From Alphaproteobacteria bacterium (GTDB lineage: Bacteria; Pseudomonadota; Alphaproteobacteria; JAUHZY01), in contig JAUHZY010000001.1 in NCBI GenBank assembly GCA_030425825.1, positions 1,088,834 through 1,152,833 of the forward strand: 64,000 nucleotides of DNA, in the 5' to 3' direction. The notes under the pieces were generated by a model. It was not told the DNA's origin. It did no database searches and worked only from the letters and a program-made list of their open reading frames with translations. A program made the position numbers and the translations under genes. Positions 5,394 to 61,399 of this stretch are shown piece after piece; positions within the stretch are counted from its first letter, which is position 1, and every line of letters begins with the position of its first letter.

Positions 5394-5828
5394 TTACTTT
5401 TTTTCGAATTTAGCCAGCTCAACACGCACGCGCAATTCAATTTCATTAAGGACCATTTGAAGGTCTGGGTGTAGGTTTTCTACCGCCATTTTTTGGTCAA
5501 CCATTTCTCTAATTTTCTGAAGTTTCGAGTAAGAAAGCTGTCCGCCAAGAAGGCCCAAGCGAATCTGCTCAAGCTCGTCCAACAACCCTTCACCATGGTC
5601 TTTTGCTTTTTGTTGATCATCAGGCTCCTGGTCAACTTCTTGTAAAGCAATCAGCGCAGAAACCGGCGAAACTGTGTATGTGGGTGTTGTTGATTCGATT
5701 GCTTCCGCATCACCTTCACCAGAAGACTGCACTAAACTAGAAAAGTTTGTGTTGCCTGTTGTCGATGCTTTTTTTTTCGCTTTAGATTTACCAACCTGAC
5801 CAACGCCTTTTGTTCCATCAATCTTCAT
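5394..5828 (-). CDS. fliX: flagellar assembly regulator FliX
   Basis: A 144-residue protein from the ATG at 5828 (GGGG seven bases upstream). It matches FliX, the alphaproteobacterial regulator that links early flagellar assembly to FlbD-dependent transcription of later flagellar genes. Support comes from the N-terminus MKIDGTKGVGQVGK, the central SALIALQEVD, and the C-terminal LLDELEQIRLGLLGGQLS with LNEIELRVRVELAKFEK. The start lies 11 bases inside the 3' end of recR, so translation is probably coupled to the DNA repair genes upstream. A longer frame from 5903 overlaps recR more deeply and is not family-like. Confidence 0.85.
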   Translation of the reverse strand: MKIDGTKGVGQVGKSKAKKKASTTGNTNFSSLVQSSGEGDAEAIESTTPTYTVSPVSALIALQEVDQEPDDQQKAKDHGEGLLDELEQIRLGLLGGQLSYSKLQKIREMVDQKMAVENLHPDLQMVLNEIELRVRVELAKFEKK

Positions 5829-6447
5829 TAACGACCCCTTTATGCATAGCTTCACCAAGCATGGGCTGCCTGGACTCCAAAGCAGTTGACAATGTTCCAT
5901 CATCTAGGTAGTCGAGCTCTCCGCCAACAGGAACACCATGTGCAAGTCTGGTTATTTTAATAGATGAATCATGAATTTTATCCATGATGTAATGTACTGT
6001 AATTTGGCCTTCGATAGTTACGTTCAATGCAAAAATAATTTCTTCTACTGTGCCATCTAATCTTTTCAAAAAACTATCTATTCTTAGGTCTTCTGGCCTG
6101 ACACCATCCAGGGCAGATAATGTACCACCAAGCACATGATAACGCCCCTTAAAAGAGTGTGTACGCTCCAAAGCCCATAGGTCAGAAACATCTTCGACGA
6201 CACAAATAATTGAAGCATCGCGGCGATCTTCTAGGCAAATTGCACATGTTTCACTTGTCCCTAAATTACCGCAAACAGAACATGTTTTAATATTCTGAGA
6301 AACATTCTCTAAGCTTTGAATAAAAGGAGGCATAATACTTTGCTGCTTTTTCAATAAGTGCAAAACAATACGTCGCGCTGACCGCTGACCCAAGCCAGGT
6401 AGCTTAGAAAAATGCGTAATAAGGTTGTCTAAGTCAGGATCAATCAT
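5818..6447 (-). CDS. recR: recombination protein RecR
   Basis: A 209-residue RecR, which with RecF and RecO loads RecA on gapped DNA. A helix-hairpin-helix lies at about residues 9-30 (KLPGLGQRSARRIVLHLL). The C4 zinc finger uses Cys56, Cys59, Cys68 and Cys71. The Toprim domain begins at ICVVEDVSDL (residue 81) and contains YHVLGGTLSALDGVRPEDL. It follows ybaB by eight bases in the classic dnaX-ybaB-recR order and overlaps fliX downstream. Confidence 0.95.
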   Translation of the reverse strand: MIDPDLDNLITHFSKLPGLGQRSARRIVLHLLKKQQSIMPPFIQSLENVSQNIKTCSVCGNLGTSETCAICLEDRRDASIICVVEDVSDLWALERTHSFKGRYHVLGGTLSALDGVRPEDLRIDSFLKRLDGTVEEIIFALNVTIEGQITVHYIMDKIHDSSIKITRLAHGVPVGGELDYLDDGTLSTALESRQPMLGEAMHKGVVNED

Positions 6448-6796: not shown

Positions 6797-8392
6797 TTAA
6801 TGAACTGTGTTTTCTATAATATTCTCAATTTCTGCATCAGGGAAGCAAGTTAAAAGATTTTGCATAAATGGGTGCGCTTCTATCTTTTTCTTATCTTCTT
6901 CTTCTGCTTGTTTTATTTTCTCGGCAATCGTCACCTCACCTTCGGCTTCAGAAGATGAAACAGCCCATGATTCTTCAGTTTCACGCCTTAAAACTTCCTG
7001 TAGTTTACGTAAAATATCATGATCTTTTTTATCAGATATTCTTAACTTAACTTCCAACCCATCCGAGGAAACAAAATTTACCTGGTTTCTCAATCTACTT
7101 GCCAACACCATCTCTTGCGCTTCTTCACACAGACCAACAATGTCTTCAAAATCATTAAGAATTAAAGTTTTTTTTTGAGCAGCTGCAGATGACTCAGACG
7201 GTTGCTTGGTTGCCGTCGGCGGCACAGACACCCCGCCTTCTAACACCTGCATTGGTGTTGGCAAAGTGGAAGTATAACACAAACGAATAATGAGCATTTC
7301 CAAAGCCTGCAAATCATTTGAAGCTTGCTTAACCTCTCCAACACCTTTTAGAAGCACTTGCCATGTTCTAGAAAGCACAGGGATAGAAAGAGACTCCGAC
7401 AAAACTTTTCCCCTTTTACGCTCACCTTCAGGAGCTGTAAATTCATCTGAAAGTTTTGGGTTAACCTTCATGCGTGTTAACCAATTTGTAATTTCAAGAA
7501 GTTCTTCTAAAATAAGGCTTGGGTTTGCCCCTTTAAAATACAAATCGTGTAAAACTTCCAACGCCTTATCAGCATCTGCTGCATGAATATAGTCAAATAA
7601 GTCAAACAAAACATCTCGGTGAGAAAGACCCAACATACTAGAAACAATATCTTCACTTACTTCGCCTTCTGATGTTGCCATTGCTTGGTCCAGCAAGGAC
7701 AAGCCATCACGGACCGAACCCGCCGCCGCTTTTGCAACAAGGCTGGCTGCTTGATCTGTTATTTTAAAATCTTCTTTCCCACAGATTCTTTTAAAGTGCT
7801 CAGAAAGCTCGCCCTCATCAACGCGGCGTAAATCAAAACGCTGACATCTTGAAAGAATCGTAACAGGAATTTTATGAATTTCAGTTGTCGCAAAAATAAA
7901 TTTCACATGCGCCGGTGGCTCTTCCAACGTTTTTAACAAAGCATTAAAGGCGTTTTTGGACAGCATATGTATTTCATCAATAATATACACTTTATATCGC
8001 GCTGAAACAGGCTTGTAGTTTACGCCATCAATCAACTCTCGAATATCATCAACACCTGTACGGCTTGCTGCATCCAGCTCCATAACATCTAGGTGTCTGT
8101 CTTCTGTAATTGAGACGCAATTCTCACAGGTACCACAAGGAGAGATTGTTGGTTCGTCCTTTTCATGCCCGATACAATTAAATGCTTTTGCAAGAATTCT
8201 TGCTGTTGTTGTTTTTCCGATACCACGCACACCTGTTAGCATAAAAGCATGGGCCAGGCGACCTGTTTCAATGGCGCGACTTAGAATTTGCACCATACTG
8301 GATTGACCAATCAGGTCATCAAAGTTTTGTGGCCGATATTTGCGGGCTAAAACACGATATTGTGAAGATGTATTATTTGCGTCTTCTGTCAA
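6797..8392 (-). CDS. dnaX: DNA polymerase III subunit tau (and probably gamma)
   Basis: Clamp-loader ATPase, 531 residues from a TTG start at 8392. The AAA+ domain shows Walker [11 protein letters not shown] (residues 54-63), the zinc cysteines Cys73, Cys86, Cys89 and Cys92, Walker B with DEIH at 139-142, and [15 protein letters not shown]. The collar domain follows to about residue 375. After a short linker a tau-specific C-terminal region begins near residue 410. Exactly at that boundary there is a run of nine A residues in the coding strand (codons 406-409); slippage either way meets a stop within four codons. The gene lies downstream of rpsU and the SRP RNA gene and is followed by ybaB and recR. 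Confidence 0.95.
7168..7176 (-). promoter_or_regulatory. A9 slippage tract inside dnaX
   Basis: Nine consecutive T on the + strand, nine A in the dnaX coding strand, reading CAA AAA AAA ACT for Gln406-Lys-Lys-Thr409. Adding one A would give Asn-Phe-Asn-Ser then stop. Losing one A would give Leu then stop. Either way a protein of 409-412 residues, the AAA+ and collar domains only, would form. In Thermus thermophilus a nine-A run in dnaX makes gamma by transcriptional slippage. That this one works the same way is inference. Confidence 0.6.
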
Positions 8393-8421: not shown

Positions 8422-8520
8422 GGGTGGAAGACCGACAATGACCCGAAGGGATCTTACTACGGCTGCTTCCTTTCGGACCTGACCGGGTTCATAAGGCATT
8501 CGTCCACGACGACCTTCCAG
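8422..8520 (-). ncRNA. ffs: signal recognition particle RNA (4.5S)
   Basis: On the minus strand the conserved SRP domain IV core reads GGTCAGGTCCGAAAGGAAGC, with the asymmetric loop and tetraloop that bind Ffh and FtsY. The two ends pair (GGAAGGTC near 8518 with GGTCTTCC near 8426), giving a hairpin of about 99 bases, the size of a small bacterial SRP RNA. It lies between the rpsU terminator and dnaX, on their strand; SRP RNA next to dnaX is common. The exact ends are estimated from the pairing. Confidence 0.95.
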
Positions 8521-60006: not shown

Positions 60007-61399
60007 GATTTGAGTTCATAAGGATAGAATAGTTTGAGAAGCTCTCAGTCGCTACATTATATTCATACATGCCTGAGCTGTCATTGTCGACCGGGGCTAA
60101 TGTAACCAAATCCATGCCACGCGCCTTCATTAACTCATCCATACCCTTAATATTATCTCCTTCAATAGAAGCTAAATGCCCTTGCCCCATATGAATCACA
60201 TAACATGATTTTTTACCTTCGGCTTTCGCAAGACCATCATGTTTTTGTTCAATATCAGAAATTCTTTCGACAAGATCTTGGTTTTGTTGTCCCAAGCGTA
60301 TTTTATAAAAAGCCTCATTGTCTGTCGTCAGATCATTGAATGTTAACTTTTTTGATGGATCAAAATGCACAAACCCATCAACATCATACCCTGTAAATGG
60401 GTAAATAGCCTGCTCACTTAAATTCTCACTCTGCTTTAAATCAAGAAAATATTCCTTTTGGTCTTCCAGCTCTTTAAACCCCTTAAAATCACTATCTACA
60501 CCTTCCATTTTTTCTTTGTCATAGCCAGAAAAACTCCTCGCCATCGCTTTGAGTTGAGCGCCTGTATAGACATTAGGAATATCTAAACCTTCAATGATTG
60601 CACCATTTGCACGTGCAGACCATATTTTCTGGATTCGAGGTCCATCAAGAGATGTGTGCATTGTCGTCAAGACATCGCCATCAACCTTTCCCTGATAAAG
60701 AGGTGCATAAGAAACTTCTAATACCTTTTCATAAAGAAACTGTATGACCGGGTCATTTGGTTGCGCCTCTCCAGAAAGCTCCAAAGCTTTTTCATCGAGA
60801 GACTCTGCACGCTTTATCAAATCACCAACAAGTTGTTTCTTCAAAGCATTATTAGAAGCCCCTACACCTTCAAGGTGAAGGCCTATTTTACTAAACACAA
60901 AGCTTTCTTTATCCATCTTAAAAGCGGATGGATCTTTATTAAGCATTGTATTCTCATAAGCTTTTAGAATTTTAATTAAGAAGTCCTTTTGGTTGCTACA
61001 TTGATTCACAAGGTCTTTAACCCAACTACTAGAAGATACACTTTCAAGCATCAGAACAGAATGTGCATCTTCAGGAAATAACTTTTGACTATTATTACGG
61101 ATAAAAACATCATCTGCAGAAGCTGGTGTATATTCATCCAACTGTAAGTGGCTTCTATCAGCAACAAAGGTAAATTTATGACCAAAAATATCTGGGCTAT
61201 GAGATGTTTGCTCAAAAACTGGACCTCTCTGCGTATCCAGATCTAACGAGCCATTTTTTTTTGCTTCAGACAAAAGAAATTTAGGTTTTTTGTCTAGTTG
61301 CCCCATCAAGAAACTATTGCCAAAATCCTTCCATTCACGATATGTCGAAAAGCTTACCCCTTCATCTGCTGGCGGTGGAACCACCTTATCTTCAGACAT
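59987..61399 (-). CDS. unrecognised 470-residue protein, possible ChaN/TraB-like fold
   Basis: No firm family. The protein has 470 residues, begins MSEDKVVPPPADEGVSF, and has no signal peptide or membrane segment. Two segments resemble the Tiki (ChaN/TraB) and erythromycin esterase fold: FTFVADRSHLQLDEY followed by SVLMLESVSSS near the N-terminus, and CYVIHMGQGHLASIEG near residue 410, with the usual Gly-His. A similar first pair is seen in the tandem lipoproteins at 18-21 kb. AAGGAGAAA precedes the ATG. It is tail to tail with ccmI-like. Enzyme activity is a guess. Confidence 0.7.
   Translation of the reverse strand: MSEDKVVPPPADEGVSFSTYREWKDFGNSFLMGQLDKKPKFLLSEAKKNGSLDLDTQRGPVFEQTSHSPDIFGHKFTFVADRSHLQLDEYTPASADDVFIRNNSQKLFPEDAHSVLMLESVSSSSWVKDLVNQCSNQKDFLIKILKAYENTMLNKDPSAFKMDKESFVFSKIGLHLEGVGASNNALKKQLVGDLIKRAESLDEKALELSGEAQPNDPVIQFLYEKVLEVSYAPLYQGKVDGDVLTTMHTSLDGPRIQKIWSARANGAIIEGLDIPNVYTGAQLKAMARSFSGYDKEKMEGVDSDFKGFKELEDQKEYFLDLKQSENLSEQAIYPFTGYDVDGFVHFDPSKKLTFNDLTTDNEAFYKIRLGQQNQDLVERISDIEQKHDGLAKAEGKKSCYVIHMGQGHLASIEGDNIKGMDELMKARGMDLVTLAPVDNDSSGMYEYNVATESFSNYSILMNSNLIGPSR

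Follow-up and report, generated by a model that had tools for sequence, protein, structure and literature searches.

In Thermus thermophilus, transcriptional slippage at a run of nine A's in dnaX was described by Larsen et al. in 2000, as summarized in two later articles (PMC1088944, PMC5009743), and the kind of mechanism considered here is known from this gene. The alphaproteobacterial dnaX that we analyzed, located in a stretch of 64,000 nucleotides (the window), resembles the Thermus gene as far as those summaries describe it: an A9 run lies in the sense strand, stop codons follow nearby in both shifted frames, and the unshifted mRNA encodes tau while gamma comes from slipped mRNAs, which for our gene is read from the sequence. 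In contrast to Thermus, it stems from another phylum, its run lies just ahead of DUF3646 and its slippage is a prediction. A related layout was reported by Antonov et al. in 2013, who described two-ORF dnaX genes identified by GeneTack with a poly-A run of 7-10 at the gamma/tau border (PMC3711429). According to the text searched, these genes resemble those of an alphaproteobacterial order discussed below (the order of genome G005), where gamma is encoded in frame 0 and tau is reached by a -1 transition, whereas our gene is a single ORF with the roles reversed and tau in frame 0. E. coli also makes gamma and tau from one gene, by a -1 frameshift on A_AAA_AAG with a Shine-Dalgarno element and a hairpin. 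The focal run contains an in-phase A_AAA_AAA, which is not the optimal heptamer, and it differs from the E. coli site by lacking a Shine-Dalgarno element and a hairpin beyond chance and by having stops in both frames. Moreover, gamma-like DnaX forms are known from the same class in Caulobacter crescentus (Vass and Chien, as cited in PMC5422525); there, according to this source, they arise by ClpXP cleavage of the protein instead of a recoding signal in the gene. A report of slippage in an alphaproteobacterial dnaX was not found in the literature searched, which covered few subscription journals and an incomplete version of the list of 12 genera of Antonov et al. The wide alphaproteobacterial distribution described below is accordingly given as not found in that literature and is not claimed as new.

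The original prediction had placed nine A's in the dnaX coding strand at codons 406-409, and this was correct: a T9 on the plus strand at exactly 7168-7176 corresponds to the A9 of the gene. In frame 0 the region reads GCT(405) CAA(406) AAA(407) AAA(408) ACT(409), hence Q406 K407 K408 T409. Gain of one A changes this to K K N F N S with a stop 4 codons past the run (412 aa), and loss of one A to K K L with a stop 1 codon past the run (409 aa), so that the predicted arithmetic of four residues and one residue before the stop also held. Pfam confirmed the proposed position at the border of the collar domain (residues 245-384) and the tau-specific part (412-525), since the run lies at the end of a 27-residue linker, 3 residues ahead of DUF3646. 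Both shortened products are therefore of gamma size and lack exactly this domain. Three features of a Thermus-type site were found, namely a sense-strand run of at least nine A's, nearby stops in both frames and a position at the domain III/tau border. The identity of the gene is supported by matches of its protein to PF13177, PF22608, PF12169 and PF12362 (clamp-loader ATPase, lid, domain III and tau C-terminal domain), by a score of 730 bits against PRK09111 (cut-off 604) and by the gene order, in which ybaB and recR come after dnaX.

Table 1. Positions of dnaX and its elements in the window.
Feature	Position	Strand	Basis
dnaX, DNA polymerase III subunit gamma/tau, 531 aa, TTG start as listed	6797..8392	-	Pfam, PRK09111
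Domain III (collar), residues 245-384, PF12169	7241..7660	-	Pfam
Linker, residues 385-411, contains the A9 run	7160..7240	-	alignment, Pfam
A9 run, codons 406-409, candidate transcriptional slippage site	7168..7176	-	sequence
TAA reached after loss of one A (409-aa gamma)	7162..7164	-	sequence
TAA reached after gain of one A (412-aa gamma)	7155..7157	-	sequence
DUF3646, tau-specific C-terminal domain, residues 412-525, PF12362, absent from both slipped products	6818..7159	-	Pfam
Bacterial small SRP RNA, RF00169, directly upstream of dnaX, same strand	8422..8518	-	

Taken as a whole, the evidence indicates that the A9 run is probably a programmed transcriptional slippage site that yields gamma. 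RNA polymerase would slip on the nine A's and produce dnaX mRNAs with fewer or additional A's. Unchanged mRNAs, as well as those altered by three A's in either direction, would be translated into tau of 531 aa, while every other number of A's would lead to a stop 1 or 4 codons past the run and to a gamma of 409 or 412 residues, which would keep the ATPase and collar domains without the tau C-terminal domain. We infer from the sequence features that the polymerase slips in vivo and that this bacterium produces gamma and makes use of it; how strongly an A9 run slips depends on the RNA polymerase.

A second genome of the focal order or family was not present among the genomes searched, and a near relative was found neither among genome contigs (best match by E-value 48% identity) nor among viral contigs or plasmids; the nearest DnaX proteins were about 47-62% identical. 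dnaX was read and aligned in 184 loci comprising class-level relatives and more distant matches, with the borders of the linker, which varies in length, set by the alignment. In the 153 alphaproteobacterial genes the linker amounted to 10,250 codons and the remainder, about eight times longer, to 79,855 codons. Runs of at least nine A's occurred 27 times in the linker (11.0 expected from synonymous codon permutation) and 6 times in the remainder (6.6 expected). Among genes in the same GC class as the focal one (0.36-0.50), 15 runs were located in the linker versus none elsewhere. For dnaX genes of other phyla the numbers were 10 and 2, and linker runs were present even at a GC content of 0.60-0.63 (L094, L113 and L116, all from other phyla). 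T9 was never found in the dnaX loci read. Slippage on poly-G or poly-C as an equivalent in high-GC genes was rejected, because G7+ and C7+ runs did not show the enrichment sought in linkers but were depleted there.

The run is not universal. Many AT-rich alphaproteobacterial dnaX genes have no A9, for example those of Wolbachia (L083, L084) and L067 and L072. Therefore, gamma production via slippage, as judged from the genes, is not required in every alphaproteobacterium. A FastTree phylogeny built from 158 N-terminal regions of DnaX required at least 14 changes of the trait, 8 of them forced by well-supported branches, although this count is soft given the many open forks of the tree. According to this tree, the linker run has been gained and/or lost repeatedly at the class level. 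Several short or broken dnaX ORFs were examined and set aside: L072, L083, L088, L237, L239, L241 and L242 simply end early with the next gene behind them, L017, L078, L086 and L193 are cut by contig ends, and for the broken gene of G058 (L223) an intact sister exists, so that either an assembly error or a mutation private to this genome may account for the break.

In two other orders the run was conserved completely, where counts refer to genomes that share ancestry and are not independent trials. All 47 readable dnaX genes in the order of G047 carried an A9 or A10 in the linker, despite GC contents of 0.32-0.51 and 46 different peptide sequences surrounding the run. Together these genes contained 56 linker runs and none elsewhere, and both shifted frames were closed within 12 codons in 56 of 56. 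Given the peptides and an AAA usage of 80%, lysines written entirely as AAA would be expected by chance in about 29 of the 47 genes. Nine genes of this order (L281, L285, L291, L292, L296, L297, L302, L340 and L343) possess two linker runs of A9-A10, about 10-25 codons apart.

The order of G005 showed the reversed arrangement. In all 15 readable genes (L245-L259) frame 0 stops right past an A9-A10 run, gamma being the frame-0 product; the tau domain is encoded beyond it in the -1 frame. Since the tau domain sits in this frame, slippage or frameshifting is, as judged from the sequences, obligatory for tau in this order. A sequencing error is an unlikely cause, because the layout is kept over 15 genomes. 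Two further genes have a comparable appearance. The dnaX of G106 (L207/L353), the sole genome of its order among those searched, ends frame 0 with TAAAAAGGGGGAGTAG at 399 aa and has a tau-like domain in the -1 frame; here an A5G5 slippage site is possible. The 417-aa ORF of G187 (L325, GC 0.27) ends just past an A9 run; a match to the tau domain lies just downstream, and this is probably an independent two-ORF dnaX. It had been proposed originally that the focal run is kept to make gamma by slippage. Alignment of relatives, carried out in other orders, supports this against chance (47 of 47 and 15 of 15), but it also revealed a patchy distribution over the class with some alphaproteobacterial genes lacking the run.

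The main rival to transcriptional slippage is -1 ribosomal frameshifting as described for E. coli dnaX, in which the ribosome would slip back on A_AAA_AAA and terminate after N-F-N-S at residue 412. The heptamer is indeed in phase at the focal run, with the -1 stop 4 codons on, and the two-ORF junction in the order of G005 ends in AAA AAG like the E. coli A_AAA_AAG, with the -1 frame alone opening into tau. The stops behind 36 linker runs were compared with a null obtained by permuting the downstream synonymous codons. The frame reached by gain of an A closed within 5 codons in 75% of the runs (39% expected). The frame reached by loss of an A, which is useless to -1 frameshifting, did so in 69% (36% expected). 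Closure of both frames within 5 codons was seen in 53% of the runs, where permutation gave 13%; with a limit of 12 codons the figures were 35 of 36 runs (97%) and 41%. Such paired stops agree better with transcriptional slippage, which both adds and drops A's, than with a -1 shift, for which the second stop would serve no purpose. The stimulatory elements of E. coli were not found at the focal site either. No Shine-Dalgarno-like element was present between -17 and -4 (upstream sequence TGAGTCATCTGCAGCTGCTC), and such motifs accompanied just 4 of the 36 linker runs. The nearest predicted stem begins 17 nt past the run and is not beyond chance (z -1.1 against dinucleotide shuffles), and the 46-nt window downstream gave z +1.28. 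Over all linker runs the mean z of downstream structure was -0.06; a weak trend, to which we attach no weight, was seen in the order of G047 (mean z -0.41 to -0.74). Besides, frameshifting in E. coli is far weaker on A_AAA_AAA than on A_AAA_AAG (PMC5009743). Ribosomal frameshifting at the focal run is thus disfavored on the sequence features and in our estimation unlikely.

Less probable still is that the run arose by chance in an A-rich, unconstrained linker of an AT-leaning gene in which Q-K-K-T happens to be written with A-ending codons; some slippage might then occur but would have no role. The genome uses AAA for 69% of lysine and CAA for 68.5% of glutamine codons, and once the peptide QKKT is given, all-A codons are about 33% likely. 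A lysine-rich, unconstrained linker makes A runs likelier by itself. In addition, the focal genome stands alone in its order among the genomes searched, and its run is located away from the usual place, about 20 residues further along than in most relatives, where it directly follows the collar. Against chance stand the linker-specific enrichment, the paired stops and the complete conservation in two other orders. The statistics within the genome, based on a 464-kb sample (417 ORFs, window included) and on all A9 sites of the assembly, also speak against it. Expectations were derived by permuting synonymous codons within genes, a conservative null in which the codons of the run itself take part. 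Sense A9+ runs in ORFs of the sample numbered 5 where about 33 were expected, while A8 was near expectation (60 versus 69). Among the 43 sites in the sample encoding [QE]KK[TNISRMK], only the one in dnaX is written as A9. From whole-genome run counts we estimate about 0.02 A9+ runs for a gene of 1.6 kb and about 0.001 for the linker; with both stops within 5 codons the expectation falls to roughly 2e-4, an estimate that uses the 13% permutation figure. The suggestion that such a run is improbable as a chance event was thereby borne out by this estimate, by the genome-wide avoidance and by the linker enrichment elsewhere in the class. Baranov et al. argued that avoidance of a run length signals that this length is prone to slippage (PMC1088944). 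By this logic, a run of nine A's is slippage-prone in this bacterium, since avoidance sets in at that length, as far as run counts can tell.

In the whole 1.95-Mb assembly about 35 distinct A9+/T9+ runs were counted, about 23 of them sense in ORFs, 10 outside ORFs and 2 antisense; some of the ORFs behind the sense count are probably spurious. Two further sense A9 runs are located in the window. One (5769-5777) lies early in a flagellar-gene-like ORF (5394-5903) with stops at 10 and 11 codons, the other (61254-61262) in an ORF of 471 codons with stops at 14 and 3 codons. An A12 (L166, G000:C11:38974-38985), longer than any other A run observed in this genome, lies at the beginning of an ORF of 673 codons (MRQKKKTVIDFFEEQ...), which, judged by eye, is perhaps a peptide synthetase-like enzyme; from its length the A12 could be a slippage or phase-variation site.

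Finally, it is very improbable that gamma is made by partial ClpXP proteolysis of tau with the run being irrelevant: Caulobacter, of the same class, obtains gamma1 and gamma2 by such processing and critically needs these forms for growth, as far as described in PMC5422525 and PMC5009743, and most high-GC alphaproteobacterial dnaX genes have a long linker and no A run, but proteolysis leaves the run, the paired stops and the frame-0 gamma of the two-ORF genes unexplained. Proteolysis may coexist with transcriptional slippage.

The importance of gamma and the way in which bacteria produce it are the subject of a long debate. Ribosomal frameshifting is known as a route in E. coli, transcriptional slippage in Thermus and proteolysis in Caulobacter. 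Our comparison of genes suggests, with good likelihood, that poly-A slippage in the linker is a recurrent and selected route to gamma and tau across the Alphaproteobacteria of lower GC content, with many gains and losses, which is invariant in some orders, reversed and obligatory for tau in one whole order, and a counterpart of the ClpXP processing in Caulobacter. The layout also yields testable predictions for organisms without prior replication biochemistry. Because the slippage layout recurs in the class of Caulobacter, complete in two orders and reversed and obligate in one of them, the sequences indicate that a shorter second DnaX is maintained by selection in lineages that differ greatly and that one route to gamma is easily exchanged for another.
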